A stretch of DNA of 64,000 bases, from NCBI GenBank assembly GCA_902727855.1, contig CACVAS010000117.1, positions 62,001 to 126,000 on the forward strand, read 5' to 3'. The translations under genes were made by a program, and so were the position numbers. Below, piece by piece: positions 3,885-21,327 of this stretch (its first letter is position 1; every line of letters starts with the position of its first letter). The notes below the pieces were generated by a model. The model worked only from the letters and a program-made list of their open reading frames with translations. It was not told the origin of the DNA and did not search any database. This stretch comes from an uncultured Sulfurovum sp. (GTDB lineage: Bacteria; Campylobacterota; Campylobacteria; Campylobacterales; Sulfurovaceae).

Positions 3885-5528
3885 ATGGCTCTTCATCCAA
3901 ATGCCGGGAAATTGGCACCCAAATCCACATTGGTTAACATTCCTCAACTCATGAGTGAATACTACACACAACGCCCTGACATGAACAATCAGGCACATCG
4001 TATTAGTTTTGGTACTTCGGGGCATCGTGGCTCTTCACTCTTGGGTAGCTTTAACCAAGCGCACATTTATGCAGTAACCCAAGCAGTTTGTGACTACCGT
4101 AACAAATCTGGCATCGATGGTATCTTATTCATGGGTATGGATACCCATGCACTCTCTTATGCTGCGCAACTCTCAGCGATAGAAGTATTGGTAGCAAATG
4201 GTGTAACACTCTACATTGCAAAAGAGTTTGGGTACACACCTACCCCTGTTATTTCTCATGCTATTTTGACACACAATGCAAAAGGTGACAATAGCCAAAA
4301 GAAATGTGATGGTATTGTCATCACCCCTTCACATAATCCACCTTCAGATGGAGGGTTTAAATACAACCCTCCACATGGTGGTCCTGCAGATACAGATGTT
4401 ACAGACTGGATAGAGTCACGTGCCAATGAAATTTTGGAAAATGATCTTCATGATGTCAAAAAAATGCCTATTTCAGAAGCTTTGGCATCAACAAATATTA
4501 CCCACTATGATTACATGACTCCTTATGTTGATGATCTTGAAAATGTTATCGATATGGATGCCATCGCAAAGTCAGGCATTCTTATTGGTGCAGATGCTAT
4601 GGGTGGTTCAGGTATGGCGTACTACGCTGCTATAAAAGCACGTTATGGTCTCAATATGGAGATTTTTCATGACACTTTGGATTCTGCATTCTCTTTTATG
4701 CACTGTGACAAGGACGGTAAAATTCGTATGGACTGTTCCTCACCTTATGCCATGGCAGGACTTGTAGCACTCAAAGACACTTATGACATTGCTTTTGGAA
4801 ATGACACCGATTTTGATAGACATGGCATTGTCACAAAAAGTGTAGGACTCATGAACCCTAACCATTACTTAAGCGTGGCTATCAATTATTTGGCACAAAA
4901 CCGTCCCGAGTGGAAAATTAGTCTAGGTATAGGAAAAACATTGGTCAGTAGCTCGATGATAGACCGTGTGGCAGATGCTTTAGACAAAAAGGTCATTGAA
5001 GTACCCGTTGGGTTTAAATGGTTTGTTGATGGACTTATAGGTGGTAACATCATGTTTGGTGGTGAAGAGAGTGCAGGAGCAAGTTTTTTACGTAAAGACG
5101 GCAGTGTATGGAGTACAGATAAAGATGGCATTATAATGACACTGCTCGCAGCTGAGATATTGGCAGTGACGGGGGAAGACCCTGGTGTGCATTATCAAAA
5201 GTTAACAAACAGTTTTGGTGCCCCTATCTATGCACGTATTGATGCACCAGCTGATGCAGAACAAAGAGCTATCCTTAAAAAACTATCTTCAGAAGATATA
5301 AAAGAAAAGGTACTCGCTGGTGAACCTATTGAAGCTATACTTACCAATGCACCAGGTAATGGTGCTGCCATTGGTGGTCTTAAAGTCGTCACAAAAAATG
5401 GATGGTTCGCACTACGTCCATCAGGCACTGAACCTATCTATAAAATATATGCGGAAAGTTTTATTGGCAAAGAGCATTTGGAACAGATACAAAAAGAGGC
5501 ACAGCTCATCGTTAACAAACTGTTTTAA
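3885..5528 (+). CDS. pgm: phosphoglucomutase (alpha-D-glucose-specific)
   Basis: Interconverts glucose-1-phosphate and glucose-6-phosphate. The 547-aa length fits the Pgm family of E. coli. Seen are the phosphoserine loop TPSHNPPSDGG with Ser149, the metal loop GNDTDFDRHG near residue 305, the sugar-binding GGEESAG near residue 390 and the phosphate-binding RPSGTEPIYKIY near the C-terminus. An AAAAGGTG ribosome site precedes the ATG. It is divergent from glk-zwf-pgl-edd and links glycogen or nucleotide sugars to glucose-6-phosphate. Confidence 0.96.
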   Translation: MALHPNAGKLAPKSTLVNIPQLMSEYYTQRPDMNNQAHRISFGTSGHRGSSLLGSFNQAHIYAVTQAVCDYRNKSGIDGILFMGMDTHALSYAAQLSAIEVLVANGVTLYIAKEFGYTPTPVISHAILTHNAKGDNSQKKCDGIVITPSHNPPSDGGFKYNPPHGGPADTDVTDWIESRANEILENDLHDVKKMPISEALASTNITHYDYMTPYVDDLENVIDMDAIAKSGILIGADAMGGSGMAYYAAIKARYGLNMEIFHDTLDSAFSFMHCDKDGKIRMDCSSPYAMAGLVALKDTYDIAFGNDTDFDRHGIVTKSVGLMNPNHYLSVAINYLAQNRPEWKISLGIGKTLVSSSMIDRVADALDKKVIEVPVGFKWFVDGLIGGNIMFGGEESAGASFLRKDGSVWSTDKDGIIMTLLAAEILAVTGEDPGVHYQKLTNSFGAPIYARIDAPADAEQRAILKKLSSEDIKEKVLAGEPIEAILTNAPGNGAAIGGLKVVTKNGWFALRPSGTEPIYKIYAESFIGKEHLEQIQKEAQLIVNKLF

Positions 5529-5551
5529 TACAGTATAGATGAAAGAGTAGG

Positions 5552-5592
5552 TATTTGTTAGAAAAGACACCTGATGGGCATACTAACAAATA
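5552..5592. terminator. inverted repeat between convergent genes
   Basis: TATTTGTTAG (5552-5561) and CTAACAAATA (5583-5592) form a perfect 10-bp stem with a 21-nt loop between pgm and the convergent ATP-grasp gene. It is AT-rich and has no clean T-run, so a bidirectional terminator role is only a possibility. Confidence 0.35.
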
Positions 5593-5596
5593 TGTA

Positions 5597-5626
5597 AGTT
5601 TGCAAATATCTAGTTTGCAAGTATCT
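5597..5626. repeat. two tandem 15-bp repeats
   Basis: AGTTTGCAAATATCT (5597-5611) is followed directly by AGTTTGCAAGTATCT (5612-5626), 14 of 15 identical. The second unit covers the last bases of the ATP-grasp gene stop. Function unknown. Confidence 0.7.
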
Positions 5627-6521
5627 ATTTTGTTTTTCTATCAATGAGATCCACAATGAGGTCAATCTTTTTATTATTAAAGTTTAGACCCATTTGTTCT
5701 TGCTCAGGTGTAGCAAAAGCAGCTATTCCATTGACTTCAAGGACAACATATTGTTCTTTTTCCATATCGTAAATCATATCGATACCGGCTATATCTGTAC
5801 CACATATTTTGGCAGCTTTCTTGGCAATATTGATGAGTTCATCTGTAGGTTCTCTAAGAAAAATTGAACCACCACTTGTAATATTGGTACGCCAGTCTTT
5901 ACTTGGTGCTTTTCTTCCATAACAACTTACAAACTCTCCATCTACAATATCGATACGAAAATCAGTATTATCATACTTAACAAACTTCTCAACATAGATA
6001 AACCTCAAGTCCAATTGGTTGAGAAATGGATAGAGTGCATCCAGTGTTGTTTTATCTTCAATCTTAGTTAACCCTACCCCACCCCAACCATCAGTGGGTT
6101 TGTAGACCATTTTCCCCCATCTATCAATAATCTCATATAGTGCTTTACTATTGTCACGGTGGTAAAGTTCAAACTCTGGGGTTGCTATATTATGATGAGC
6201 CAACAGATAAGAGGTTTGAAACTTGTCTTCTGTCAAAGTAAATGCTTCATAACTGTTAATGGTCGGTATGATACGGTTAAGTGCCTGATAGAGAAAGACT
6301 TGATACTGTGTCTGCTCTCCTGCATTATAGGAGAAGAAAAGATCAAGCTCATCAATCTTTCTTCCTTGATGGAGTATATGACCCTCATTGACTATAGCTT
6401 CTCTAAGGTTTAGACCAGAAATGACATCAATATCTCTGTTATTTAATTTTTGAATGATCTTTTCCTGAATTTTAGCACCACCACCATTTTGATAGTGCCA
6501 TAAACCAATTTTTCTTAACAT
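5625..6521 (-). CDS. ATP-grasp (RimK-like) ligase of unknown substrate
   Basis: A 298-aa protein with an ATP-grasp fold signature: KMVYKPTDGWGGVGL near residue 140, a DFRIDIVDGEFV segment near residue 190 and a metal-binding VLEVNG near residue 270. This resembles the RimK / glutamate ligase group, which joins an amino acid to a carboxylate with ATP. The substrate cannot be read from the sequence. The start at 6521 (MLRK) has AAGG about 10 bases upstream, whereas the longer in-frame ATG at 6560 has no clear ribosome site. It stands alone between pgm and hsdR. Confidence 0.8.
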   Translation of the reverse strand: MLRKIGLWHYQNGGGAKIQEKIIQKLNNRDIDVISGLNLREAIVNEGHILHQGRKIDELDLFFSYNAGEQTQYQVFLYQALNRIIPTINSYEAFTLTEDKFQTSYLLAHHNIATPEFELYHRDNSKALYEIIDRWGKMVYKPTDGWGGVGLTKIEDKTTLDALYPFLNQLDLRFIYVEKFVKYDNTDFRIDIVDGEFVSCYGRKAPSKDWRTNITSGGSIFLREPTDELINIAKKAAKICGTDIAGIDMIYDMEKEQYVVLEVNGIAAFATPEQEQMGLNFNNKKIDLIVDLIDRKTK

Positions 6522-6624
6522 CACTATACCTTGTACATATATTGTATATAGTACAATCATTTTGTTATGTATGTGTTCAGTTTTTTGATTAATATTTAAT
6601 CAAATGATAATGTGTTCATCTACC

Positions 6625-9600
6625 TTAGCTATCCTCTTTCTTTCTATAGCTTTGCTTTGGTTCTGCTACCATCAGCTCGGGCTCATACATATTGTTGACA
6701 GGTTTTATATGGGTTTGCTTCAATCCTTTAGCGATTAACTCATAGACAATATCGGCAAATCCTTCTCTGATTCTCTCTTTGCCAAGCACTTGTGTCGCTA
6801 AGTCTTGATGTACTTCCAAGCTATCTATCACCGCACTATTAATGGCCTCTGCAAATCCACCCATCATCGCTTGCTCTTTTGTGTTGTTACTTACTTGCTC
6901 TATAACTCTTTCATCTTCAAGCACTTTATCTTTGATGGTGTTGGCATAGTTAATCATGTCTTCATCAGTAAGCTCTCCCTCAAACAAAGCGTTCATATGT
7001 GTCAGTATGGCAGAGAGTAACTCTTTTTGTGGGTCTTTTGCAAGTGCTGAACCCGCTGCGTCTATGGCTCCAAGCTCTACTTCATCTCCTGCAAGAGAGA
7101 TATCTTGTTTTTTTTGCTTGTGTAACTTGTAGTGAGACAACTTCACATCGTCTATGTTGATGGGGTCTTTAGGATTATAGGTCTTCAAGTTTGGTATGAG
7201 TGCTTTAACAAATGCCGAGAGTTTGAGTAACTCTTCATCTGTATAGTCCACTATTTGAGACAAAAACTCATACATCCTCAAAAATGTAATCATATCTTTT
7301 TTGAATAGGTCAAGTGCATTTTTATCTTCATTGGCATTTTTTAGGTCTAGTGCATAGTTATGTGTAGCCTTCTCATCTTTGTTTCTATTTGCTTCTTTGA
7401 GACTGTTCTTTAGCGTTCCTATTTCATCTAGAGCTAGCTTATATCTATTTTTGTATCTATCCACAGCTGGCTTGATGGCAGAACTCATAGCCGCTTGTGT
7501 ACCCTTTGGGTCAAAGAAAGCTTTCGCATAGTTCTCAACATCAACATTGGTAAAGATGTCACTCTGCTCTAACTTATGTTGCATATCATAGACTATATTT
7601 GGATCTGTAACATCTTCTATGGCTGTGGTATTGTAATACGGCTCAAACGCTTCTTTAATCTCTTCTGCTTCATTGTAAAAGTCAAGTACAAATGTTTGGT
7701 CTTTCCCTGCGTAGGTTCTATTGAGCCTTGAGAGTGTCTGCACACAATCCACACCGCCAAGTTTTTTGTCTACATACATCGCACAAAGTTTAGGTTGGTC
7801 AAACCCTGTTTGAAACTTATTGGCAACCAACATCACCTGATATTCATTAGTATCAAATGCCTTTCGCATCTCTCTCCCTTTAAGGTTAGGGTTCATGTTT
7901 GCTTCGGTGTACTCTTTTTTTGTCCCCTCTATGTCATCTTCAATCTTACCAGAGAATGCAACCATCGCTTGCATCTGTTCTGCTATGCCATGTTCTGCTA
8001 TGTACTTGTCAAATGCTAGTTTATAACGTACCGCTGCATTTCTACTAGAAGTGACTACCATCGCTTTGGCTTGACCATCTAGTAAGTGAGCTACATGCGT
8101 TCTGAAGTGCTCACAGATAATCTCTATCTTCTGTGCAATGTTATGTGGGTGAATGTTCAGCCACTTAGCTATTTTTACTTTGGCTTGCTTACTCTCCACC
8201 TTTTCATCATGACGCATATTTGCATGTTCTAGTTTGTAGTACAGCTTGTAAGTCGTATAACCTTGCAGTACATCTAAGATAAACCCTTCTTCTATCGCTT
8301 GTTTCATACTGTAATGATGAAAAGCTTCAGGCTTGTTCGTCTCCGATGGTGCTTCGTCTGGGTTTGGTAGTACACCAAACATCTCTAAAGTTTTGGTCTT
8401 TGGTGTAGCAGTAAAAGCATAATAGCTGAGGTTTGTACTTGCACTTCTTGATTCTAGTGAAGCGGTAATCACATCTTCCGCACTTAACTCCACACCCTCT
8501 TCTAGCTGCTCTGCAGTGAGTACTTCTCTAAGTTGCTTCGCCGTTGTTCCCGTTTGAGAAGAGTGAGCTTCATCGGCGATGATGGCATAGCTATTGTCTT
8601 TAAGTGTAGGTCTCTTCCCAATCGCTTCAAGCACAAAGGGAAAAGTTTGAATGGTAGTAATGATAATCTTCGCTCCACGCTCAAGTGCATCTGCAAGTTG
8701 TACCGATTTTGACTCAGTAGAACCCTCACGAGAAATCCCGACTACTACACCCTCTTTGTGCTCAAAATTCGCTATGGTCTCTTGAAGTTGGTTATCTAAC
8801 ACGGTTCTATCGGTAATGACGATGACCGAGTTAAACACCGACGCTTCTTTCTCACTATGTAAAGATGCAAGCTGATGAGACAACCACGCGATAGAGTTAG
8901 ACTTCCCTGAACCAGCAGAGTGTTGTATGAGGTAGTGATTGCCTGCACCATTAGCTTTAGTGTTGGCTAAAAGTTTTCTTACCACATCAAGTTGGTGGTA
9001 CCTTGGGAAGATAAGCGTCTCAGACTTACGCTTCTTACCTTGATAATCCTCTTTTTCTTTTACCTCTAAGTGTATATATCTTGCAATGATGTTGAGAATA
9101 GAATCACGTTGAAGCACCTCTTCCCACAAGTAGCTTGTGGCATACCCATTTGGGTTTGGTGGGTTACCTGCACTGCCATCATCTCGACCTTTGTTAAAGG
9201 GTAGAAAGAAAGTTGAAGAGCCTGCAAGCTTCGTTGTCATGTAGACTTCATCGGTACTCACGGCAAAGTGAACTAAGGCTCTGCGTTTAAACTCAAGCAG
9301 TGCTTCTCCTTTAGCCGGTCTGTCGTATTTGTACTGGTTCACTGCATCTTGCACATTTTGTGTAAAGTCTGTCTTTAGCTCCATGGTAACGATGGGTATA
9401 CCATTGAGAAACAGCACTAGGTCTATGCGTTCATTACCACTCTTTGTAGTTACTTCTTGTACGACTCTTAGTATGTTTGCATCATACTTTGCTTGTGTAT
9501 CAGGGTTATGGAGTTCTGGCTTAAATTGACATAGTTTGAACTTAGAACCTATGTACTTTAGCGTATTCCGCAAGTAGAAGAGTGAACCATGTTTGTCCAT

Positions 9601-9825
9601 CTCTGTGGCCACATGTTTACACAGTACAGCATCTGTCTTAGTACCTTCACGTTTTTGCATCTTCTCATAGGCTTGAGGTTGAGTAGTCTTAATGTAGTTG
9701 ATGATATCATCAGGATAAAGTGCGAGTTCTCTATCGTATCCGCTGACATCACCTTCTACCCATTGGTGAGATGTTAGATGTTGTACTATCTCTACTTGGA
9801 ACTGTCTCTCTTTGTGTTTGCTCAT
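6625..9825 (-). CDS. hsdR: type I restriction enzyme, restriction/translocase subunit
   Basis: Motor and nuclease subunit of a type I restriction-modification enzyme. The 1066-aa protein has the nuclease core D135...E149-L-K151, a Walker A motif AGSGKS near residue 305, a DEAH box near residue 418 and helicase motif FQTGFDQP near residue 680. The start has an AAGGGGAT site upstream. It is the last gene of the leftward hsd block, 30 bp after the DUF4011 gene. A second, truncated copy of its 5' end lies after fic (14411-14491), showing that the locus was rearranged. Confidence 0.97.
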   Translation of the reverse strand: MSKHKERQFQVEIVQHLTSHQWVEGDVSGYDRELALYPDDIINYIKTTQPQAYEKMQKREGTKTDAVLCKHVATEMDKHGSLFYLRNTLKYIGSKFKLCQFKPELHNPDTQAKYDANILRVVQEVTTKSGNERIDLVLFLNGIPIVTMELKTDFTQNVQDAVNQYKYDRPAKGEALLEFKRRALVHFAVSTDEVYMTTKLAGSSTFFLPFNKGRDDGSAGNPPNPNGYATSYLWEEVLQRDSILNIIARYIHLEVKEKEDYQGKKRKSETLIFPRYHQLDVVRKLLANTKANGAGNHYLIQHSAGSGKSNSIAWLSHQLASLHSEKEASVFNSVIVITDRTVLDNQLQETIANFEHKEGVVVGISREGSTESKSVQLADALERGAKIIITTIQTFPFVLEAIGKRPTLKDNSYAIIADEAHSSQTGTTAKQLREVLTAEQLEEGVELSAEDVITASLESRSASTNLSYYAFTATPKTKTLEMFGVLPNPDEAPSETNKPEAFHHYSMKQAIEEGFILDVLQGYTTYKLYYKLEHANMRHDEKVESKQAKVKIAKWLNIHPHNIAQKIEIICEHFRTHVAHLLDGQAKAMVVTSSRNAAVRYKLAFDKYIAEHGIAEQMQAMVAFSGKIEDDIEGTKKEYTEANMNPNLKGREMRKAFDTNEYQVMLVANKFQTGFDQPKLCAMYVDKKLGGVDCVQTLSRLNRTYAGKDQTFVLDFYNEAEEIKEAFEPYYNTTAIEDVTDPNIVYDMQHKLEQSDIFTNVDVENYAKAFFDPKGTQAAMSSAIKPAVDRYKNRYKLALDEIGTLKNSLKEANRNKDEKATHNYALDLKNANEDKNALDLFKKDMITFLRMYEFLSQIVDYTDEELLKLSAFVKALIPNLKTYNPKDPINIDDVKLSHYKLHKQKKQDISLAGDEVELGAIDAAGSALAKDPQKELLSAILTHMNALFEGELTDEDMINYANTIKDKVLEDERVIEQVSNNTKEQAMMGGFAEAINSAVIDSLEVHQDLATQVLGKERIREGFADIVYELIAKGLKQTHIKPVNNMYEPELMVAEPKQSYRKKEDS

Positions 9826-9855
9826 TTATCGTTATCCCCTTATGTCTATGTCATT

Positions 9856-12800
9856 TTATAAATAGTTTTCAATAGATTCAAATATTTCATCCATAAACAT
9901 TACTTGCTCTGGATCAATTTTTTCTCTAAGATATTGCGGAATACTGATTCTAAATTGTTCCATAGTCGTTGGCTTTGTTTTACAAAATAAATCAATCATA
10001 TGATTACTTAGAATACTTTTACTATCTATCTTAAACTTAGGCTCAACCTTTTCTTTTCTAATGCGATAGAGTTCCTTTTCAAGATCTTTTTTAGTAACTT
10101 CGATTGTCTCCTCTGTAACTTCTGGTTCTTCTACAGGTCTATGCACTGGTAGTATTTCTTCTTGGACAATCTCTTCGTCAGGCTTATCTTGGATCATTAT
10201 TGCTCGGCTTTTAGCTACATCAAGTGCATTTTTCAGCCGTATTTCTTCTTCATTTCTATGTCTAAACCAGTCTGTTGACCATATCCTATAAATATTCCAT
10301 CCTATCGACTCAAGTATCTCTTGTCTAATTCTATCCCTATCTCTTGCAGACCTACTTGAATGGTACGAAGCTCCATCACATTCTATTCCTAAAATGAAGT
10401 TATATGAGTTTTCTACTTTAACACCAATATCTATAAAAAAACCTGCTACACCAACTTGAGGCTGAGCCTTATATCCTAGAGATTGGATATACCTTATAAC
10501 TGATTCTTCAAATGGGGAACCTGGTTCTTTGGCAGTCGTGATTCCACCATGAGACTCTACTATTCCTGTCTCAGTATAATTTAGATAATTACGTAGAGCC
10601 ATACGCCCTCTATTTCCTTCTTGAATAGCTATGTCACTGCTTTTCATAGATGTATAAAGTACAATCTTTTTTCTCGCTCTTGTGATTAAAACATTCATAC
10701 GTCTCCAACCACTATTCCCATTAATAGGACCAAACCTTTGGTAAACTTTTCTGGAATCTGGATCTGGTCCATATGTTGTTCCAATGAAAAGAACATCTGC
10801 TTCATCCCCTTGAACATTTTCAAGGTTTTTTACAAAAATATTCCCAGCTTTGTAAGCATTATCATACAATGAACTTAAAGTTCCATCATCAACAGTTTTT
10901 TGTTCTATAATCCTTTCTATGAGCTCAGTTTGCTTTTTATTCATAGCTACAAGACCAATGCTCTCATTGGTACTCTTTAATAAAGACTCAAACAAACCTT
11001 CAACCATAGCTATGGCTTCAGTTGGATTAGTTTGATTTTTATATTTCGCATTTGGTAAGAATCTACGAGTAATACCAACATTTCCTTCATGCCCATCTGG
11101 AGAAGGGAAAATCATCAACTCATCATCATAAAAATGATGGTTTGAAAAGGCGATAAGGCTTTCGTGCTTAGATCGATAATGCCATTTCAATCTTTTAACA
11201 TTTGGATAAACACGAAGCATCAAATCTAAAATAGATTCTGATGATGTAGCTATCGTTTCCTCTCCATCATTTTGCTCATTGATACTGCTAAAGAATGATG
11301 AAGGTGGCAACTGATTAGGGTCTCCAACTACAACTACTTGTTTTGCTCTAGCTATGGAACCAAGTGCATCTTCTGGAAAAATCTGTGAAGCTTCATCAAA
11401 TATTACTAAGTCAAAGGGCTTTTGCTTTGGATCAATAAACTGTGCAACAGATAGAGGAGACATCATAAAACATGGTTTAAGAGCTCTAATAGCATCACTT
11501 GCTCTCTTTAAAGCCTGTCTTATCGGTTGATGCGCTTTTTGTTTATTTACTTCATTTCTTAAAAGCCTCATATCTGTCATCTCACGTACAGTTCCTCCTC
11601 TTCCAGCAGGAACTATATTCTTAGATAGAAGTAGTGAGTGTTGTTTAGCGTAGAGTCCATTGAGCTTTTTGTCTGCATCTCTAAAGTTTTTAAGGTGTGT
11701 TTCAAATAAATGTCTGTTAAATTTTGCCAAAGTTTCATTAGTGCGAAGCACTTGGTGTGACCATTCTCGATAATAGCCATACTCAAAGAGCTGTTTCATA
11801 CCATCTAATATATGATTCTTCTTTGCATAGTCCACAAGATCCATAAAATGAGCAGCAGATACTCTCTGTAATAGTCTAGAAACATCTATCCACATAGGTA
11901 AGATGGAACTAAGCTCTATCTTGTTCTCTAATTCATTAACTATTGATTGATACGTAATGACTTCTTTGTTATAAAACTCTTCCTTGTTTATTCTACCATA
12001 GCGAGAAAGCTCTTTCTCAAGTGCTTCAGTATCTGCTATTAAAGCTTTAATGTGGATAGAAATATTCTTTATACTGCTTAAGTACTCTTTGTAGTTATCA
12101 TTAAATAGAGGTGCGATAAGCTCGTCACTCATCCCCTCAGAATAAGCTTTAATTTTCCATTCTTGGCTATCCTTGAGTGAAAGGACTAACCTTATAATAT
12201 CTAATGTCTTGGGTATTGAGCTCAGGTTACTAGTGTCTAACTGCTTATACTCTGTACTTACCAAAGCCTCTTTTTCACCCAGCAGGTAAAACTCTTCATA
12301 AAGTTTTTGGTATTTCTCGATTTGCTTTCTAACTTCTTCTATCTCATGAGACATAGTTTCTGGATTAGACTTCTTTTTAATAGTGAAAGCCATTAAAAAC
12401 TTTCGTCTAGCCTTCTTGTACTCTGAATTAAAGAATTTTCCAAAGAACCCTATGTCAACAAATCCCCTTAGGTTCCTGCTTAAATCTTTGAGCTCTGATA
12501 TGTCTTCAATGCCATCAAGATCAACATCTTCAATAGCGTCATATGCGCGTAGGAGTTCTTCTCCTCTCTTGAAGAGATCTTCTAGTTTACTTTTTTCAAC
12601 AGAATGAACTGCATACAGTTTTTTTGTGTCTGGCAAGTTGTCTAGAATATTTGATTTGTGTAGATTAACTATTCTACTTATATTTTCAGGAGTAAATACT
12701 ATTTCTAATGTATCTATCTCCTCAGATAAGTATTTATCGATTGAAAGTGATATATCTTTAAGCTGTTGAAATATAGATATTATAGAATCAGCGTCTATAG

Positions 12801-14358
12801 AAATAGCATTTGTTATCTCAAAGCCTTTCCATTGAGAATGAAGTATTTCAGGGTCTTCCTCAATAAGCTTCATAAGAGCACTTAAATCATCTGATATTGA
12901 CTTGTATTCATTTTTAGATAACTTCAAGTACGCTTCTGTAGTAGGTAGGCTATCAAATATACTTTTATGAAGGTTAAGCATATTTCCGAAGATATTGTAT
13001 GGAGTCTCTGATATATTTTCAATATCTGTATGTAGTACCTTTAGATAATCGTTTACATTCTCTTTTATCTTCTCTATTTCATCGATTTTTTCTTGCAAAC
13101 CAGTATTTGTTTCTTGTGTCTCTAGATTAATTCGATCTCCCAGAGAAGTATAAAATGCCAATTTATTTGTCTTATGTGAATGTAATTCCAAGGTAAAATG
13201 ACCTAAACCTACATTATCAAGACGTTTCTTAACTACTTCAAGGGCTACTAACTTCTCTGCAACAAAAAGTATGCTTTTACCCTCTGCCAATGCGGCACCT
13301 ATAAGGTTGGCAATTGTTTGACTTTTTCCTGTACCTGGAGGACCCTCAATGATAAGGTTTTGACCTTTAAGTACTTGAGAAATTGCATCTCGTTGAGAGC
13401 CATCTGCATCCATAATAAGAGCTAAAGATTCTGTTGAAGAAGCATCTCCTGTAGCTACAGCCATAGTATCTGCTACAGCACCATCTCCTGCTACTTGACG
13501 CAATACTTCATTATCTAAGATATTATTTTCTTCTCCCCAATTTTCATGGTCAAGATCTTGATACATAAGTAATTTTGAGAAGTGAAAGAAATCTACTGAG
13601 AATCTTCTTCTTACACCAAGAAGGTGTGGATATTTTTCGCAAAGTTCACTTATTTTAGAAAAATATTTCTCAGGAAGTTCGTCTTCTTCTAGTGTAGGTA
13701 AAGCAATACCAAATTCTTTCATTTTATATTCTAAAGAGATATTTGAAAACATATCTTCACCAGAATATTCAAGAGTGTATGTATAAGATCCTGTTGTAGA
13801 ATCAATTTTACCTCGCTCAATCTGAATTGGCATAAGGATTAAAGGAGAGAGAACGATACGATCATTATCTTTTGATGGTTTCCATTCTAAGAAGCCAATA
13901 GCAAGATAAAGCATATTTGTACCCGTTTCTTGGATAGCAGTATTTGAATTACTTCGTATCCGACGGCAAATTTTATCTAATGTATCTGCATAATGTAGTG
14001 TCTGTACATAATTATCAGTATGTTTTTCTAGGAGCTCTTCAGTAGAATCAACAACTATTGGAGCATCTTCTGATATATTTAAGTTTAAACGCTTTGCTTG
14101 AGTTCTAACGTTGATTAGACCTGTGTTCTCATCAACTTCTTCCTCTTCATCTGTAGTATCATCGATATCTGGATACGGTACGGGAAGAAACCGCATTTTA
14201 CTTCCAGAGCTTAGTTTATCATAGAGTACATTTGGCATTTCATCAATAATAGATAGTCGTCCTCGCTTCTTGATGTTGTAGTTAAGAAGCGTATTTCTTA
14301 GTGTTAAGTCTAATAACTTTTCTCTAGCACCATCTAATAAGCGTTTAGTTTCTGTCAT
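9856..14358 (-). CDS. DUF4011 - SF1 helicase - Vsr-like nuclease, antiphage-type protein
   Basis: A 1500-aa multidomain protein. The N-terminus (LLDLTLRNTLLNY near residue 20) matches DUF4011. A superfamily 1 helicase follows with Walker A GPPGTGKS at 339-346, Walker B FDEAS near 987-991, VVGDPNQLPPS near 1007 and a C-terminal helicase half near 1200. A Vsr/DUF559-like nuclease follows (IECDGASYH near 1328, then WNIYRIWSTDWF). This architecture is what I recall as the Hhe defence protein of Gao et al. 2020; that name rests on memory. The start has AAAGGAAAAG upstream. It sits between a broken hsdR 5' end and the intact hsdR, so it was added to an existing restriction operon. Long spacer regions between the helicase halves look helical. 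Confidence 0.88.
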   Translation of the reverse strand: MTETKRLLDGAREKLLDLTLRNTLLNYNIKKRGRLSIIDEMPNVLYDKLSSGSKMRFLPVPYPDIDDTTDEEEEVDENTGLINVRTQAKRLNLNISEDAPIVVDSTEELLEKHTDNYVQTLHYADTLDKICRRIRSNSNTAIQETGTNMLYLAIGFLEWKPSKDNDRIVLSPLILMPIQIERGKIDSTTGSYTYTLEYSGEDMFSNISLEYKMKEFGIALPTLEEDELPEKYFSKISELCEKYPHLLGVRRRFSVDFFHFSKLLMYQDLDHENWGEENNILDNEVLRQVAGDGAVADTMAVATGDASSTESLALIMDADGSQRDAISQVLKGQNLIIEGPPGTGKSQTIANLIGAALAEGKSILFVAEKLVALEVVKKRLDNVGLGHFTLELHSHKTNKLAFYTSLGDRINLETQETNTGLQEKIDEIEKIKENVNDYLKVLHTDIENISETPYNIFGNMLNLHKSIFDSLPTTEAYLKLSKNEYKSISDDLSALMKLIEEDPEILHSQWKGFEITNAISIDADSIISIFQQLKDISLSIDKYLSEEIDTLEIVFTPENISRIVNLHKSNILDNLPDTKKLYAVHSVEKSKLEDLFKRGEELLRAYDAIEDVDLDGIEDISELKDLSRNLRGFVDIGFFGKFFNSEYKKARRKFLMAFTIKKKSNPETMSHEIEEVRKQIEKYQKLYEEFYLLGEKEALVSTEYKQLDTSNLSSIPKTLDIIRLVLSLKDSQEWKIKAYSEGMSDELIAPLFNDNYKEYLSSIKNISIHIKALIADTEALEKELSRYGRINKEEFYNKEVITYQSIVNELENKIELSSILPMWIDVSRLLQRVSAAHFMDLVDYAKKNHILDGMKQLFEYGYYREWSHQVLRTNETLAKFNRHLFETHLKNFRDADKKLNGLYAKQHSLLLSKNIVPAGRGGTVREMTDMRLLRNEVNKQKAHQPIRQALKRASDAIRALKPCFMMSPLSVAQFIDPKQKPFDLVIFDEASQIFPEDALGSIARAKQVVVVGDPNQLPPSSFFSSINEQNDGEETIATSSESILDLMLRVYPNVKRLKWHYRSKHESLIAFSNHHFYDDELMIFPSPDGHEGNVGITRRFLPNAKYKNQTNPTEAIAMVEGLFESLLKSTNESIGLVAMNKKQTELIERIIEQKTVDDGTLSSLYDNAYKAGNIFVKNLENVQGDEADVLFIGTTYGPDPDSRKVYQRFGPINGNSGWRRMNVLITRARKKIVLYTSMKSSDIAIQEGNRGRMALRNYLNYTETGIVESHGGITTAKEPGSPFEESVIRYIQSLGYKAQPQVGVAGFFIDIGVKVENSYNFILGIECDGASYHSSRSARDRDRIRQEILESIGWNIYRIWSTDWFRHRNEEEIRLKNALDVAKSRAIMIQDKPDEEIVQEEILPVHRPVEEPEVTEETIEVTKKDLEKELYRIRKEKVEPKFKIDSKSILSNHMIDLFCKTKPTTMEQFRISIPQYLREKIDPEQVMFMDEIFESIENYL

Positions 14359-14410
14359 AGCTTTTCCTTTATTTCTAGAGGCTTATTCATACTCCAAGAA
14401 TAAAACCTTT

Positions 14411-14491
14411 TCAAGATTCTTCCATCCATTTATGAGATGTTAGATGTTGAACTATCTCTATTTGGAACTGTCTCTCTTTGTGTTTGCTCAT
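14411..14491 (-). pseudogene. truncated 5' remnant of hsdR (26 codons)
   Basis: Starting at an ATG that overlaps the fic stop (ATGA, 14488-14491), this 26-codon frame reads MSKHKERQFQ then IEIVQHLTSHKWMEES and stops. The first 73 nt match the start of the intact hsdR (9825 leftward) at 67 positions. The six differences include V/I, Q/K and V/M changes, so the copies are not freshly duplicated. It marks the original fic-hsdR junction into which the DUF4011 gene was placed. Confidence 0.9.
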
Positions 14492-15480
14492 GCCTTCTCT
14501 CCTATGATTTTCCAATGTCCGCTTTTCAAACTTCCTTCACGCTCAAGAACACCATTCTCTTTTAGCTTAGCAATATCTCTTTTGATAGTCTTATCACTCA
14601 CACCACAAGCATGTGCTAACTGCTCAATAGTCACACCATTATCATCTTGAATAATTTCCAAAATCTTATCTTGTCTATTTATTGGGACATTTTTAGGGAC
14701 ATTTATTGGGACATCTTGATTGTTCTGGAGTTCTCGCTCACAAGTTTCTAGTATCGCTTCAAGCATAAATTCCACAAACGGTGTGCTTTCTCCTGCATCT
14801 CCAGCACTCTGAAGTGCATCATAATACTCTTGCTGACTCTCTTTGATAACGCTCTCAATTGGCATAGCTGAAAAGAGTGGTTTCCATTTGTAAAGTATAA
14901 GACTCTGCCACAATCTTCCTATACGACCATTTCCATCTACAAAAGGATGGATAAATTCAAACTCATAGTGAAATATAGAACTTTGAATAAGCGGATGTAC
15001 ATCACTTGTCTCTAACCATGAAAACAGATCTTCCATCAAACTTGCAACATGTGCATGAGGTGGTGCTACATGTACAACCCCATCTGCTCCACCAACACCT
15101 ACATTGCTAGACCTAAATGTTCCAGCATCTGTAAGTATCTCATCCATTAACATCTTATGAGAGAGGAGTAAGTCATCTAGTTTTTTATACTCAAATGAAT
15201 TCAACATATCATACACCTTGATAGCTCCATTTACTTCTGCTATCTCTCGTATACTTCCCATTACTCTTTTACCCTCAAGTATAGCTGTTACTTTCTCAAT
15301 ACCTAGGGTATTCCCCTCTATCTCAAGTGTTCCTGTAATGGTTTTGATTTTATTTGCTTTACGTAGAGTTGGGCTTATCGCAGTTGGTGCAAGCACTTCT
15401 AGCTTTCCAACTATTTCACTAATCTGACTTACTATATCTAGTATCTTTGATGTTATCGTAAAGGGTGGTGTGTAGTTCAT
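14488..15480 (-). CDS. Fic family protein (AMPylator type) with C-terminal winged helix
   Basis: Fic enzymes usually transfer AMP from ATP to a target hydroxyl group. The full catalytic motif HPFVDGNGRIGR is at residues 178-189. An N-terminal inhibitory helix motif T51-x3-E55-G56 fits (S/T)xxxE(G/N), so this is a self-inhibited class II Fic. After a short VPINVPKNVPIN linker the C-terminal ~60 residues form an HTH (IEQLAHACGVSDKTIKRDI). It overlaps the DUF6933 gene by 4 bp (ATGA), with GAGGAG as ribosome site. Position inside a type I restriction operon is common for Fic genes. Target unknown. Confidence 0.93.
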   Translation of the reverse strand: MNYTPPFTITSKILDIVSQISEIVGKLEVLAPTAISPTLRKANKIKTITGTLEIEGNTLGIEKVTAILEGKRVMGSIREIAEVNGAIKVYDMLNSFEYKKLDDLLLSHKMLMDEILTDAGTFRSSNVGVGGADGVVHVAPPHAHVASLMEDLFSWLETSDVHPLIQSSIFHYEFEFIHPFVDGNGRIGRLWQSLILYKWKPLFSAMPIESVIKESQQEYYDALQSAGDAGESTPFVEFMLEAILETCERELQNNQDVPINVPKNVPINRQDKILEIIQDDNGVTIEQLAHACGVSDKTIKRDIAKLKENGVLEREGSLKSGHWKIIGEKA

Positions 15481-15962
15481 TTTATCTCCTCTAGTAATCT
15501 TTTAAGAATATCTACTGGAAAATGAAACTTTCCTCTGCTATATGGAGTATGGTTAATCCTTGCACTCAAAGAGAGTTCATCTTCAGTCATGTTGTAGTAT
15601 TTTAGCATGTGTACCATATCGTTCATATTGCCCATCACTGAACGGTCAGATGTTTTCATGTAAGTTATGCTCTCCAGTGTATCTAGCATCTTCACTATAT
15701 GTGGCAAGACAAAGTCATCTCTTCGTAGAAGTTCTGCTAGGTGTGACTTTAGTATCTCTCTTAGGTTATTCATCTCTTTCTTGGTGACACCATAGAGAAA
15801 TACCGAGTACAAACTCTCGTTATGTGTTACAAGTAAACATTTCTTACGACCTATCATAAAGATATTGCCATGCCATGATGTAAATGAGTCAGACTCCGTG
15901 GGTAACTCTGTTGTCTTTACGCCTACCATGTCTTGTAGTTTTTTAGTTGCTTGTATTATCAT
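15477..15962 (-). CDS. DUF6933-like protein
   Basis: A 161-aa soluble protein beginning MIIQATKKLQD with a SWHGNIF segment near residue 30 and VFLYGVTKKE near residue 53. This resembles DUF6933, a family of unknown function often found near other accessory genes; the family name is from memory. A strong AAAGGAGA site precedes the ATG. It lies 30 bp after hsdS and overlaps fic by 4 bp, so it is probably co-translated with fic and could be its partner, though nothing proves that. Confidence 0.7.
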   Translation of the reverse strand: MIIQATKKLQDMVGVKTTELPTESDSFTSWHGNIFMIGRKKCLLVTHNESLYSVFLYGVTKKEMNNLREILKSHLAELLRRDDFVLPHIVKMLDTLESITYMKTSDRSVMGNMNDMVHMLKYYNMTEDELSLSARINHTPYSRGKFHFPVDILKRLLEEIK

Positions 15963-15992
15963 TGTGCTTTCTCCTTTACTTCATTCCTAACA

Positions 15993-17291
15993 TCACACCC
16001 CAGGGTGTTCTCTCTGACTTTCGTCATTCACCTTAATCTTCCCAGTAACAGCAGCACTAATAAGAGCGGTGCGTTTCTCTTTTAGTAGGTCTATGGCTTT
16101 GGTTGATTTAGTGATAAGGGTGTCTATCTTTGAGGTTTTATCGTCTAGATAGTCTGCTATATTCTTTTGTTCTCTATATGATGGTAATAAAATATTAAAA
16201 AATCTCAAATCTGCTTGGAATAAATGTGGTACACCCATCCCACCCCTCAATAAATTTATTGTTTCTTGTATATATGTAGATATGAAGTAATAATATAGGA
16301 ATATGCTGTAAAGTTTATTATTAGGTCTAATAACAGCAATTGAGCTATTTACAGTTGCAGGTTTTGGTAACACTCTCACTACATTAGTAGTTCCCGTAGT
16401 TGAACCATCTTTTGTTACCAACACATCCCCTAGTTCTAACTTGATTTCAGGTGACTCTTTATACCTCACTTCTGTTATGTAATTCACATTAACAAAATCA
16501 ATTTCATTATCCTTAATATTGGGTGTAGCTAAAAATATAAATCCATCTTCTACATACTCTTCAGCCTTTAAACCCTTCCATCCTAATCTGGCTTTCACTC
16601 TAGTTTCATAACCTAGTTTACTTCTAGTCCAATGCTCAGGAATCTCCCCTAACCACTCAACCCCACTATCTTTCATGGCTACTGTGTTGTCAAGTCCACG
16701 AGTTACAGCAGTGGAGATGACTGCTTGGCGTTTCTCACGAAGTAGCTCTATAAGTTTTGTTTGTTTCTCTATGAGGGTATCTATCTTGGCTGTGGCTTTG
16801 TCGAGGTAGTTGGCTATGGTTTGTTGTTCTTGGAGGGGTGGAACAGTTATCATAAAGTTTTGTATCAAAGGTAATCGTAATGAATCAACAGTTGATTTCG
16901 CTACACCAGCTAATGCTACCTTGTAAAAGTTATTCTTTATATATTCAAAGAGAAATTTACCTATTACTTGATTAAAAGCATAAAACATATAAACTCGTTG
17001 ATGAAAATCAAATTTGCCCTTTGCATAATGAAAAACTTTACCAACACCAACACCGTCTCCAGCAGTTAAGATAGCCTCTCCATTGAATGAATATGAATTG
17101 ATTCTCTCCACAGTTTGTGAACGAACATAAAAAGGGTACTTTCCATCATCAACTTTATTTTCAGTGTCTTTTCCACCTGTTGTAATATTACATAAGAACT
17201 TTAACCTACTGCTTCCCCAATGTTTAGGAATATCTCCCAACCACTCAACACCACTATCCCTATACTTGGGGTATTGTTTATATCTGTTCAT
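15993..17291 (-). CDS. hsdS: type I restriction enzyme, specificity subunit
   Basis: Recognises the bipartite DNA target for methylation and restriction. The 432-aa protein has the usual two-fold architecture: each half starts with a DSGVEWLGxIPxHW motif (near residues 12 and 208), holds a variable target-recognition domain, and ends in a conserved helical spacer (IANYLDKATAKIDTLI near 160 and IADYLDDKTSKIDTLI near 378). Both halves look intact. The ATG overlaps the DUF3800 stop by 4 bp (ATGA). Confidence 0.96.
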   Translation of the reverse strand: MNRYKQYPKYRDSGVEWLGDIPKHWGSSRLKFLCNITTGGKDTENKVDDGKYPFYVRSQTVERINSYSFNGEAILTAGDGVGVGKVFHYAKGKFDFHQRVYMFYAFNQVIGKFLFEYIKNNFYKVALAGVAKSTVDSLRLPLIQNFMITVPPLQEQQTIANYLDKATAKIDTLIEKQTKLIELLREKRQAVISTAVTRGLDNTVAMKDSGVEWLGEIPEHWTRSKLGYETRVKARLGWKGLKAEEYVEDGFIFLATPNIKDNEIDFVNVNYITEVRYKESPEIKLELGDVLVTKDGSTTGTTNVVRVLPKPATVNSSIAVIRPNNKLYSIFLYYYFISTYIQETINLLRGGMGVPHLFQADLRFFNILLPSYREQKNIADYLDDKTSKIDTLITKSTKAIDLLKEKRTALISAAVTGKIKVNDESQREHPGV

Positions 17292-18208
17292 AGATGGCTG
17301 TCAAAGATACTACACTCTTCTACGCTCTTTTTGATGTAGTATTTTCTTCTTACTTTAAGACTTGATAACTCTTTATCATTGTCAAAACTCTCATCTTTGA
17401 TATACTCTTTGGGTTTAAATTTCCATATCATTATCTTGAATTTGTGTCTATTGTTGTAGTTTTGACCTTTTACAAAACCTGTGTTGCTATACCAATTGAA
17501 TACTTTTGTGCCTCTATCTGTAGCCTCTATAGACTCTAGCCTCTTTTGTATATACTTTGCCAATTTTATTTTACAAATATGTTGTATTTTGGATTTTACA
17601 CCTTTGACTCTACAGCACTTGAAATTTCCATAGTATCCAGCTGCACCCATGACAATATCTATGATTTGATGTATATAACTATTTTTACTATTGATGAAGT
17701 CGACTTTTACATCAAATGTTTTATAGTGACTATCTACATATGCCCTGAGTGTCTTTTTTCTCTCTCTATCAGGATAATCATCTAGTTTGAACAACAGATT
17801 ATCTATACCTAAGTTCTTAAAGTAGTCGCTATCAAACCCAAATGAATGTTTGATAAACTGATAATAGATTTTGAATAGTCTATCTTTAGGATTTATTTCG
17901 CCACTATATGCATATTTTTTGTCCATAAAAAGTTGACGATACTTGAGTTCATCATGACTTTCCCAAAAATCAAAAAATATATCTATGAGCATTTTATAAT
18001 CTTCAAAAAATCGCCCATTTAATTTAGACCATTTAATCTCATCTCTATGAGGATGCTTAAAATTTTTATTGCACTCTTTTAATTTCTGTTCTAGTAGTGA
18101 GATGGTATCAGAAGGAGCAGATATAGATACGAAGAAGTGATGATAACGATTTGGAGGTGTTTCTGAGTGCGTCCAGCCCTCATCTGCCAATATTTGATAC
18201 TGTTTCAC
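17288..18208 (-). CDS. DUF3800 domain protein
   Basis: A 306-aa protein with an N-terminal ILADEG segment (the family usually has DESG) and conserved acidic positions downstream such as LFKLDDYPDRE near residue 140. DUF3800 proteins have a predicted RNase H-like fold and are frequent in restriction and other defence loci; their role is not settled. It starts with GTG, overlaps the preceding 66-codon ORF by 4 bp (GTGA), and overlaps hsdS by 4 bp, so translation is coupled across hsdM to hsdS. Confidence 0.8.
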   Translation of the reverse strand: MKQYQILADEGWTHSETPPNRYHHFFVSISAPSDTISLLEQKLKECNKNFKHPHRDEIKWSKLNGRFFEDYKMLIDIFFDFWESHDELKYRQLFMDKKYAYSGEINPKDRLFKIYYQFIKHSFGFDSDYFKNLGIDNLLFKLDDYPDRERKKTLRAYVDSHYKTFDVKVDFINSKNSYIHQIIDIVMGAAGYYGNFKCCRVKGVKSKIQHICKIKLAKYIQKRLESIEATDRGTKVFNWYSNTGFVKGQNYNNRHKFKIMIWKFKPKEYIKDESFDNDKELSSLKVRRKYYIKKSVEECSIFDSHL

Positions 18209-18405
18209 TGCCCAACTCCAACTTCATAATGCGCCGCTATCTTAGTGACAGAAGCTTGTCGTATGATGGGCATTGAAAAAATATCTATAAGAACTCCTCC
18301 GGGTGAGCATTGTAAAGAGGCTTGAAGAGTATTCTTACTCACATTATACATTTTGAATACCAAAAAATTTCTTAAGTGCACTAGATTTGATAGTTTATAT
18401 CTCAT
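18205..18405 (-). CDS. small ORF (66 aa) wedged between hsdM and DUF3800
   Basis: I do not recognise this protein. It has a GGAG ribosome site seven bases before its ATG, overlaps the hsdM stop by 11 bp and the DUF3800 start by 4 bp, which is the pattern of a genuine, translationally coupled gene. The product is basic at the N-terminus, has a [11 protein letters not shown] segment near residue 33 and no obvious membrane helix. It could also be only a coupling frame carrying ribosomes from hsdM to DUF3800. Confidence 0.5.
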
Positions 18406-20344
18406 GTAACATCTCCATTATCTCAGCATTCAATGTTTCTAACTCTGCATCTATCTCTTCAAGTGCTCTTGGTGGTGTGTATTCGTAGAAGTGTCTGTTG
18501 AAGGGTATCTCGTAGCCTACTATACCAACTTCGCCATCTTTTGCATCTGTCTTCTTCTCATCTATCCAAGCCAGTGGTACATGTGGTGTTACTTCTCTTT
18601 CAAAGTAAGTGTATATATCTTCACTAAGTGGAACATTTTCATAGTCTCTTAGGTCTGCGTTTGCTTCAAGCTTTCCTTTAGAGTCATGACATAACTCCGC
18701 TTCATCATCATGCACACTTATATGTTTCTGTATCAACTTGAACTGCGAGGCTGTGAGTTTAAGTGCCAATGCTTGCTTGAAAGTATCACGACTCATTATC
18801 TTCTCATCTGCTATGTTACTAAGTGCTTTTAAAATAGACTCTGAGAGTTTACTATCTAACTTCATAAATGCCTTATCGTTTTGCAGAGCTTCAAGTCTGT
18901 CAATGTCATGAGGATAGTAGCTTAGTTGTAGGGGTCGCTCAACGGTTATGCGTCTGTAACCAAAGTCTGTAGTGTTAAAGAGTTTAGAGATTTTAGAAGC
19001 CTCATGCTCTCCATAGATTCTTACAATGTAGTTTATCTCATCTTCATCGAGGTACTTACGCTTAGAGCCTAGTGACTTTCTCATAGATTTACCCATGTTT
19101 GAAGCATTGATGAGTTGTACTTCTCCTTTTCTGTGCTCAGGCTTGTTGTTAGAGAGTACCCAGATGTAAGTGGCAATTCCTGTGTTAAAGAACATATCGT
19201 TAGGTACTGCAACGATAGCTTCAAGGTAATCGTTTTCTAAGATGTAGCGTCTTATCTCACTCTCACCACTTCCCGCACCACCTGTAAAGAGAGGAGAACC
19301 ATTTAGGATGATACCTATGCGACTCCCACCCTCACTCTGTGGTCTCATCTTACTGACTAAATGAAGTAAAAATAGAAGTGAACCATCACTGACTCTTGGA
19401 AGCCCTGCACCAAACCTACCGTTGTAGCCTTGTTCTTTGTATTCCTTATTTACATCCTCTTGCACTTTCTTCCACTCTACACCAAAGGGAGGATTGGAAA
19501 GCATATAGTCAAACTTGTTCTCTTGGAGTTTGTCATCACTTAGTGTGTTACCATGTTTGATATTCTCTACTGGTTGACCTTTTATCATCATGTCTGCTTT
19601 ACAGATAGCATAAGACTCGCCGTTTAGCTCTTGACCAAAGGTTACCAGTGTAGCGTCATGGTTGAGTTCATACACATATTCGCTACCACTAGAGAGGAAC
19701 CCTCCTGTACCAGCTGTTGGGTCGTAGAGACTTCTTACGACGCCTTTTTTGGTAAGTACGTCATCATCCGTTGAGAAAAGAAGTGAGGTTGCAAGTCGAA
19801 CCATATCTCTTGGGGTAAAGTGCTCCCCCGCTGTTTCGTTAGAAGCTTCTGCAAACTTACGGATAAGCTCTTCAAACAGTAACCCCATCTCATGGTTAGA
19901 GAGTACGTCAGGGTGTAAGTCCATAGATGCAAACTTCTCAACGATGAGGTAAAGCAAGTTTGCTTCATTGAGCTTATCTATTTGAACTGCAAACTCATAC
20001 TTCTCAAATATCTCTCTAGTGTTGGCAGAAAAGTCGTTGATGTAGCTCTCTAGGTTTTCTCTGATGTTGTTAGGGTCACTCATCAGCTTTGTAAGTGTGA
20101 ACTTAGAGGTGTTGTAGAAACTATGCCCAGACTTACGCGTAAGAAACGGTTCTAGTGGAATGCCTAAATATTTTCTAGCGACATTTTCTGCAAGGACATC
20201 ATCTCTTGTAGGTTCAAGCACACACTCTAAACGTCTTAGAAGCGTAAAAGGAAGAATTATTTTGCCGTAGTCTGACTGCTTATAGTCACCTCGTAGCAAG
20301 TCTGCAGTAGACCAAATGAGTGCTGAGTTTGAGTGTTGTGCCAT
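18395..20344 (-). CDS. hsdM: type I restriction enzyme, N6-adenine methyltransferase subunit
   Basis: Methylates adenine within the HsdS target using S-adenosylmethionine. The 649-aa protein has SAM motif [11 protein letters not shown] near residue 212 and the catalytic NPPFG near residue 287, with an N-terminal HsdM_N-like helical domain and a long C-terminal region. It heads the enzyme genes. Upstream are a TATAAT box about 25 bp before the ATG and an AGGA site. The upstream HTH and 43-codon genes may also read into it. Confidence 0.97.
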
Positions 20345-20418
20345 AAATAATAAGTCCTAATAATGTTTTAAAGATTATAGCTTATTGTTGTAAAAATTGA
20401 TGCTTTTGAGTTTTTGGA

Positions 20419-20550
20419 TTAGTTAAAATGTACTGCACCACCACCTGTCAAATATACTTTTACAGGTGTTTGTTTATGTGTATCTGGGATAGCCTTGGCT
20501 ATCTCTTCCATCATCTCAATGATAGCTTCTTTAAAACTAGTAGCTATCAC
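20419..20550 (-). CDS. small GTG-start ORF (43 aa), possible fragment
   Basis: Starts with GTG overlapping the last base of the HTH gene stop (TAGTG) and encodes 43 residues ending in KVYLTGGGAVHFN. The TGGGA near the C-terminus recalls the phosphate-2 turn of actin/Hsp70-type ATPases, so this may be the tail of a larger lost gene; that is speculation. It lies 74 bp upstream of hsdM on the same strand. Confidence 0.4.
   Translation of the reverse strand: MIATSFKEAIIEMMEEIAKAIPDTHKQTPVKVYLTGGGAVHFN
20420..20435. repeat. 16-bp direct repeat, copy 1 (copy 2 at 21188-21203)
   Basis: TAGTTAAAATGTACTG occurs here and again at 21188-21203, 17 bp from the 3' end of tRNA-Met. The two copies bracket the HTH and 43-codon genes (about 0.75 kb). 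They could mark a small insertion or deletion product. No integrase is present. Confidence 0.55.
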
Positions 20551-21038
20551 TAAAATCTACCTGTCATTTTGAATTGATTGAACCTAGCCATATCTAACCC
20601 ATTTTTAAGCCCATAAAGACGTGCTAGACCATTGCCTGTTTGATTTTTATTACCATGGTATAGACCTACATTTACTTGAGTTGTAAAACTCAATTGAGTC
20701 ATTTTATTGGTTAAAAAGCTATACAGATAAGCAGCTCTCGCCCTAGCCTCTTTTGACAGACTAGTATCTTTTGAGAGTTCTAACCATACACGACTATCTC
20801 TGCCTGATACCAACACTTCATACAAATCCTTTTCAAATTCTCTCAAAGAACTATAATTTTGTTCATTCTCAAGGAGTTTTTTTAAATCCATATTATTATT
20901 CATATCTAAAAGTTTTTGTGCTGCTTCATAGTCTAGCGTTTCAAGGAGTTGATAAAGTTTCCCTCTATTCCCCTTTTTCCAATCTCTAAGTGTTCTTGTC
21001 GGAACATCTAAAAGTGTATGCATTTGTTGTTGATTCAT
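20550..21038 (-). CDS. helix-turn-helix protein, candidate regulator of the hsd block
   Basis: A 162-aa protein whose first 25 residues read as a helix-turn-helix (MHTLLDVPTRTLRDWKKG), followed by a mixed helical body with a LSKEARARAAYLYSFL helix near residue 95. The rest matches nothing I know. It is preceded by an excellent sigma70 promoter whose spacer holds a 5-bp-arm palindrome, which suggests autoregulation. It is first in the leftward series HTH, 43-aa ORF, hsdM and so on, so it may control restriction genes in the manner of a C protein. This role is inference. Confidence 0.7.
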   Translation of the reverse strand: MNQQQMHTLLDVPTRTLRDWKKGNRGKLYQLLETLDYEAAQKLLDMNNNMDLKKLLENEQNYSSLREFEKDLYEVLVSGRDSRVWLELSKDTSLSKEARARAAYLYSFLTNKMTQLSFTTQVNVGLYHGNKNQTGNGLARLYGLKNGLDMARFNQFKMTGRF

Positions 21039-21062
21039 AAATGTCCTTTATTATTTTAAACT

Positions 21063-21091
21063 ATTATAGGCGAATATCGCCTTTTTGTCAA
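21063..21091 (-). promoter_or_regulatory. consensus sigma70 promoter with embedded operator
   Basis: On the minus strand TTGACA (21086-21091) is followed after exactly 17 bp by TATAAT (21063-21068). Both hexamers are full consensus. The spacer contains GGCGATATTCGCC (21069-21081), with 5-bp arms GGCGA/TCGCC around a 3-nt centre. The HTH gene start is 25 bp past the -10 box. Such a promoter is unusual in Campylobacterota, where -35 boxes are generally poor, and the palindrome placement is ideal for repression. Confidence 0.82.
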
Positions 21092-21296: not shown

Positions 21297-21327
21297 TTGG
21301 TTAAGATGAAAGGTTAATGAAAAAAGG

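Follow-up and report, generated by a model that had tools for sequence, protein, structure and literature searches.

The window, by which we mean the whole 64,000-nt stretch of an uncultured Sulfurovum contig analysed here, carries on its minus strand a type I restriction-modification operon in the order hsdM, a DUF3800 gene, hsdS, a DUF6933 gene, fic, a 73-nt scar of the 5' end of hsdR, a DUF4011 gene of 1500 codons and an intact hsdR. It is assigned to type I by the presence of hsdM, hsdS and hsdR with their family domains in one operon (Pfam HsdM_N + N6_Mtase, Methylase_S twice, and HSDR_N + SWI2_SNF2, respectively). The methyltransferase HsdM (649 aa; 18395..20344) also matches the PADLOC MTase_I profile with 928 bits, and the specificity subunit HsdS (432 aa; 15993..17291) contains two stretches of PF01420 (Methylase_S). 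Between their genes lies a cargo gene for a DUF3800 protein (306 aa; 17288..18208; PF12686, E 9.5e-6), and hsdS is followed by two further cargo genes, one for a DUF6933 protein (161 aa; 15477..15962; PF22016, 140 bits) and fic (330 aa; 14488..15480), whose product combines a Fic domain (PF02661; SoFic profile) with a DeoR-like HTH at the C-terminus (PF08220). This protein contains the Fic motif HPFVDGNGRIGR. Next come the scar (14419..14491), corresponding to codons 1-24 of an hsdR allele, a junction tail (14359..14418), the gained DUF4011 cargo gene (9856..14358) and a spacer of 30 nt (9826..9855) between the cargo stop and the ATG of the intact hsdR (6625..9825). The latter encodes 1066 aa with HSDR_N, SWI2_SNF2 and T1R_D3-like domains; it scores 191.6 bits against the TIGR00348 hsdR model, below the cut-off of 284.6, and is thus a divergent HsdR, matching EcoR124-type HsdR chains in the PDB (E 4e-9 to 3e-8) over residues 118-434. 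The 186 nt separating hsdM from the DUF3800 gene (18209-18394) hold a 66-aa open frame without clear similarity to other parts of the operon. A gene of the ftsW/rodA family lies near the hsdM start both in the window (20344-22479) and in a member of another family (L135:4152-5762), the two being 51% identical, possibly a shared neighbourhood.

The DUF4011 helicase-nuclease and its setting

The DUF4011 protein (1500 aa) unites the DUF4011 domain (PF13195), an SF1-type helicase (AAA_11 and AAA_12; PF13086/13087) and an MTES_1575 nuclease (PF18741). It matches the PADLOC candidate profile PDC-S37 over nearly its full length (1156 bits; residues 3-1422 on profile positions 5-1376 of 1550), and the Hhe profile of that collection with a weaker score. 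It scores 1265 bits against the Hhe equivalog model (NF042953; cut-off 2000; the window protein has 1500 aa as against 1797 in the model) and 1039 bits against that of the antiphage protein ProA (NF058533; cut-off 1500). We therefore describe it as PDC-S37/Hhe-like, below the Hhe cut-off, on the strength of these profile comparisons. Its matches to the Hhe and PDC-S37 profiles span their full length or nearly so, and the same Pfam set recurs in the relatives listed, some of which are named Hhe by their source. Hhe itself reportedly goes back to Gao et al. in 2020. The domains and the Hhe-like relatives suggest a DNA-targeting antiphage role, in which the helicase-nuclease may attack invading DNA alongside the restriction enzyme.

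Among 175 genomes of the family, four match this protein at E 1e-60 including the window's own, the other three with 37-42% identity over parts of the protein; among 398 genomes of the order, 13 match at E 1e-100, again including its own, and two others reach 53-54% over the whole length. In one of these two (L109, genome G525), a DUF4011 gene 53% like the window's stands 72 nt behind the hsdR of another type I family, after N6_Mtase and Methylase_S genes; that operon also holds an AAA_21 gene (L109:45-14240). Around the other (L108), no gene resembling the window's hsd genes was found in the 20 kb examined. Viral contigs yielded no relative of the DUF4011 protein and two relatives of hsdR, and 432 plasmid records have DUF4011-type matches, all below 60% identity.

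With 129 nt separating it from fic and 30 nt from hsdR, the DUF4011 gene may be co-transcribed with the hsd genes, a spacing that would permit it. The operon strand shows no terminator-like site in 9600-15000; the four such sites found there (1.7 expected) all lie on the opposite strand. A promoter scan of the same interval returned 21 sites as against 20.6 expected and is uninformative, and an AAAGGA motif occurs shortly upstream of the DUF4011 ATG.

Genes nested in type I restriction operons have known precedents. In Campylobacter jejuni hsd loci, rlo genes lie between hsdR and hsdS, and mlo genes between hsdS and hsdM (Miller et al. 2005 as cited in PMC5183652; rloA/rloB in PMC2928727). The window likewise has other genes in both positions; the likeness is one of gene position, and the passages on rlo and mlo in these sources mention neither hsdR 5' scars nor DUF4011 genes. 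TgvAB of Vibrio cholerae is embedded in the type I operon of VPI-2, so that there, too, a second defence system is nested within such an operon, and it protects independently of HsdR restriction activity (PMC11411939). It is a GmrSD-type modification-dependent restriction pair, for which the relevant part of that source mentions no scar, whereas the window's cargo is a DUF4011 helicase-nuclease. Since TgvAB acted without HsdR restriction, the default view by analogy would be that the DUF4011 protein acts independently of HsdR, rather than in the cooperation with it that the earlier note had raised as a question. The accessory defence-type gene of the window also recalls prrC in the ecoprrI type IC locus of Escherichia coli, which encodes a tRNA anticodon nuclease activated when EcoPrrI is inhibited (PMC12707154). 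Coupling to the restriction enzyme is, as described there, a feature of prrC, whereas the window's DUF4011 gene is known from its sequence. The setting is hence a known kind of variable slot, and the interesting part is the scars, which are unusually clear. Nested defence genes are known, and their entry into an operon without its destruction is seldom visible.

Scarred and empty fic-hsdR junctions

The scar ORF (14411-14491; 26 codons and a stop) lies directly 3' of fic, whose stop codon overlaps the scar's ATG as ATGA. Its first 73 nt (14419-14491) agree with the start of the intact hsdR (9753-9825) at 67 positions, and the six differences entail three amino-acid changes (scar to hsdR: I vs V at residue 11, K vs Q at 21 and M vs V at 23). 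Of the 30 bases preceding each ATG, only 7 are shared, so the similarity begins at the hsdR ATG; at its other end it stops in codon 25, and the unlike sequence thereafter marks a non-homologous junction. The local alignment of scar and hsdR start scores 116, and reversed-sequence controls of the 25 loci scanned (see below) reach at most 34. All this bears out the earlier note, which had described the 26-codon piece at these coordinates, its ATGA overlap and its six base and three amino-acid differences, and also the presence of one 1500-codon defence-type gene between scar and intact hsdR: the DUF4011 gene is the sole ORF of at least 80 aa there.

The possibility, raised at the outset as fatal to the idea, that the match is a widespread repeat unrelated to hsdR can be set aside. 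A search of the window's own genome with the scar region returned two places only, the scar and the hsdR start, which rules out a dispersed repeat. The first 72 nt of hsdR, searched in 397 genomes of the class, matched in six genomes besides its own, once in each: at hsdR starts in G290, G489 and G315, at a lone fragment in G220, and as short matches in G394 and G426, where the surrounding stretches examined contain no gene resembling the window's operon genes. The scar is thus a true hsdR 5' end.

The tail between scar and cargo contains a 20-codon open frame (14358-14417) whose stop overlaps the start of the DUF4011 gene. Its sequence (14359-14418), compared with the 3' ends of the surveyed ORFs, gave a best score of 30, within the range of shuffles (maxima: median 29, 95% 34, maximum 36), and its peptide found nothing better than E 0.42 apart from the window's own sequence. 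The end of an Abi_2 cargo gene was considered as its source and dropped, the score lying within the shuffles.

The earlier note had proposed to look in relatives for fic-hsdR loci without the insert, and such an empty junction does exist. In L122 (same stretch as L025), a fic 75% identical to the window's overlaps by 14 nt an hsdR whose product begins MSKHKEERF. The junction itself is uninterrupted; a single-base frameshift at the DEAH region breaks this hsdR (L122:9667-9800) and may be a sequencing error or mark a switched-off nuclease, so that the gene as read may be inactive.

A second scar of the same form occurs in L031 (same contig as L120). Here, the stop of a fic 78% like the window's is overlapped by an hsdR start, ATGAGCAAACATAAAGAAGAGAGATTTGAGAC, of which 28 nt are exact to the locus's own hsdR (score 56), and L031 resembles L122 without a break from fic into the scar (85% over 1029 nt). 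The scar continues in frame into a 42-codon tail resembling the C-terminus of the SLFN_AlbA_2 / HATPase_c_4 protein that stands ahead of hsdR in L142 (10/18 residues identical and 17/18 similar; E 4e-6 for a single comparison). There follow a 278-aa cargo gene without a Pfam match and an intact hsdR starting MGSGKHKEERF, whose upstream region is 96% identical to that of L030 (500 nt) and 94% to that of L140 (208 nt), neither of which yielded a fic of this kind. L030 shares cargo and hsdR with L031 at 91.5% over 4828 nt. Between hsdS and the cargo gene, L030 also has a 37-nt piece like the fic linker (L030:6395-6431; 92% to the L031 fic), perhaps the trace of a lost fic. As the intact hsdR has a 5' end belonging to other loci and the scar is of the fic type, the sequences of L031 can be read as the product of two operons, the scar coming from a fic-overlapped hsdR and the intact gene from a cargo-preceded one. 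The breakpoints of the two scars differ, lying at codon 25 in the window and at about codon 11 in L031. That hsdR 5' scars occur twice at this junction, broken at different points and accompanied by different cargo, one of them followed by a donor-like tail, gives a joint-by-joint record of how such operons grow.

Origin of the window operon

We consider it probable that the window operon is a recombinant of two related type I operons, formed by an illegitimate join upstream and a homologous exchange in or beyond hsdR, with the present hsdR being the incoming allele. One parent would have had fic overlapping hsdR (hsdM-DUF3800-hsdS-DUF6933-fic-hsdR), and in the other a DUF4011 helicase-nuclease gene would have immediately preceded that parent's hsdR. 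DNA entering from this second parent would pair by homology with the resident hsdR or sequence beyond it, and at its other end a junction lacking long homology would form within codon 25 of the resident gene. Such an event would retain fic, leave codons 1-24 of the old hsdR as a scar, add the cargo gene and replace hsdR by the incoming allele. The scar with its boundaries, the empty junction of a relative and the second scar are observed, whereas we infer the order of events and the homologous side of the exchange. A comparable process, homology-facilitated illegitimate recombination, has been proposed for the type VI immunity-gene arrays of V. cholerae (PMC5361080). In that account, one homologous anchor and one illegitimate end add a module and leave old pieces behind, as would be the case here, the leftovers being orphan immunity genes in the arrays and an hsdR start in the window. 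At the level of titles and abstracts we found no paper on hsdR scars in such operons, by which we do not claim that none exists. If hsdR is swapped together with the cargo, the restriction subunit may be acquired jointly with its new neighbour.

The earlier note had left two options for the scar, a replacement hsdR allele carried by the insert or a duplicated and diverged target. The former is favoured for three reasons: both copies carry derived bases, the similarity starts exactly at the ATG, and in L031 a fic-type scar stands beside an intact hsdR of foreign 5' end. Against the five closest relatives (L027, L028, L029, L132 and L159), hsdR is derived at bases 31 and 61, both altering amino acids, and the scar at 42, 67 and 69, base 60 being ambiguous; at base 31 all 11 relatives listed have A, as does the scar. 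Change in both copies is thus probable, as expected of two alleles. The substitutions by themselves are not enough to establish that hsdR was replaced, and, as a point against a two-operon origin, some of the 'derived' bases recur in seven of the 11 listed relatives, more distant ones (e.g. C at 61 and A at 67 in L135, T at 42 in L163 and L165, and G at 69 in L165). Several further points count against it: the 28 nt of L031 are identical in both copies, which implies closely related parents or a copied piece; the cargo does not stand out by base composition (GC3 is 24% in the DUF4011 gene, 27% in fic and 28% in hsdS, as against 39% in hsdR and hsdM); scars occur in only 2 of 25 loci; and the window's 60-nt tail matches no surveyed gene end above shuffles. 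None of the loci surveyed proved to be a donor with DUF4011 immediately before an hsdR of this family, the DUF4011 relatives P0001 (93%) and P0002 (65%) lying outside that survey, and a mosaic test along hsdR against four relatives showed no switch point and no break marking a crossover.

Duplication of the target, whereby the DUF4011 gene inserted at the hsdR start, about 73 bp were copied and the copies then drifted, seems to us unlikely. It would account for the duplicated piece being only the start of the gene, and for scar and hsdR being closer to each other (67/73) than either is to the listed relatives (at most 61/73 in one comparison and 12 or more differences in another). Yet the copy would need to start precisely at the ATG, the insert holds a single ORF of at least 80 aa and no recombinase gene, the derived bases fall in hsdR and not in the scar alone, and the two hsdR starts of L031 differ in their 5' ends, which is hard to fit. 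Site-specific insertion is very unlikely. Integrative elements do supply new gene ends at tRNA and other genes, and hsdR codons 1-25 serving as an attachment site for an element that brings a new 5' end would explain both the restored hsdR and the same gene being hit in two loci; against this stand the differing breakpoints, the insert's lack of a recombinase and the donor-like gene tail at the L031 junction. We judge it highly improbable that the scar is what a deletion left of a complete second hsdR between fic and the cargo, cut back to 24 codons. Such a loss would likewise produce a 5' piece, and decayed hsdR genes do exist (L054, L159; see below), but among the largest 20 of 41 repeat families in 5500-21500 of the window, none except the 73-nt pair links hsdR with the gap between fic and the DUF4011 gene. 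Moreover, two full hsdR genes, which the earlier note had named as a finding that would refute its own reading, occur in none of the loci listed with all their hsdR matches, a check that covers all but L162-L165. Next to no weight can be given to a scar kept for function, as a translated 26-residue HsdR N-terminal peptide or as a coupling start passing ribosomes from fic toward the cargo: the frame is open, begins in the fic stop and retains its start codon, but the DUF4011 gene has its own AAAGGA motif, the L031 scar frame continues into an unrelated tail, and no binding role can be argued for residues 1-25, which lie outside the stretch aligned with EcoR124-type HsdR.

A recombination of two operons thus fits better than the earlier note's picture of a single gene simply inserted at a target, which is not supported; the note's idea of modular growth is sound, the operon having grown without losing hsdR.

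The hsdS-hsdR slot among relatives

We gauged how common such scars are by aligning the hsdR starts of 25 loci, the window included, with up to 6.5 kb of upstream sequence (six stretches were shorter, down to 548 nt). The set leaves out L159, a fragment only, and L121, which lacks hsdR, and counts L143 under L030 and L120 under L031. Scars were found in two loci, the window (116) and L031 (56), the other 23 scoring at most 37 with reversed controls reaching 34. A separate scan of 42 loci, with distant families in and the window out (own start against up to 6 kb upstream), returned one scar, that of L120, with the next best at 34. In five loci, hsd genes are accompanied by a fic with 69% or more likeness to that of the window: the junction is empty in L122 and scarred in the window and L031, and L029 and L121 show neither scar nor overlap, L121 having been judged by eye as its contig ends before hsdR. 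A sixth fic, at 69%, lies in an 11-kb contig in which no hsd gene was found (L123).

The slot itself is not unusual. Genes in this position are known from the published rlo and mlo loci, and one or more ORFs of at least 60 aa (mechanically called) separate hsdS from hsdR in every one of the 23 loci that contain hsdR and all or part of hsdS (L163 holds only the hsdS end). As in the rlo-type arrangement, these are non-hsd genes that vary among relatives. Their domains, in the subset of genes scanned, include DUF3800, YhcG/DUF1016, Abi_2, SLFN_AlbA_2, HTH with peptidase M78, KAP NTPase and Fic, and several genes are without a match. At the flanks, of the 22 loci with the HsdS end displayed, 19 have a TGK[I/V]DV-type sequence within its last 12 residues (the window, L031 and L137 being the exceptions), and sequence upstream of hsdR is common to loci with different cargo. 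These conserved ends and shared upstream sequences would fit an exchange of cargo between them. More generally, though we hold this only tentatively, the hsdS-hsdR stretch of these Campylobacterota operons might be an integrase-free slot for defence cassettes. Here, the hsdS 3' and hsdR 5' ends would serve as homology anchors and cargo would be swapped by recombination, with illegitimate events on one side leaving behind remnants of hsdR, of fic or of earlier cargo, a record of the sequence in which genes were gained.

Loci with different cargo share a conserved stretch of up to about 230 nt ahead of hsdR (L031:9716-9948, L121:5244-5478, and also L140, L137 and L138), which may hold a separate hsdR promoter or an RNA. 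In genome G220, a lone 67-codon ORF whose first 63 codons match the hsdR start follows a 353-aa HATPase_c_4 gene (L159:7018-8385), and no other gene resembling the window's hsd genes was found in the 19 kb examined; it is probably the remnant of a lost operon with AlbA_2-type cargo before hsdR. The hsdR match in L054:386-1305 (also L022) covers residues 5-244 and then 447-516 with nothing between, as in a decayed hsdR with an internal deletion. Finally, repeats of the TTTTAGACAA type occur upstream of hsdR in L163, and similar words are present in the junction tail of L031.
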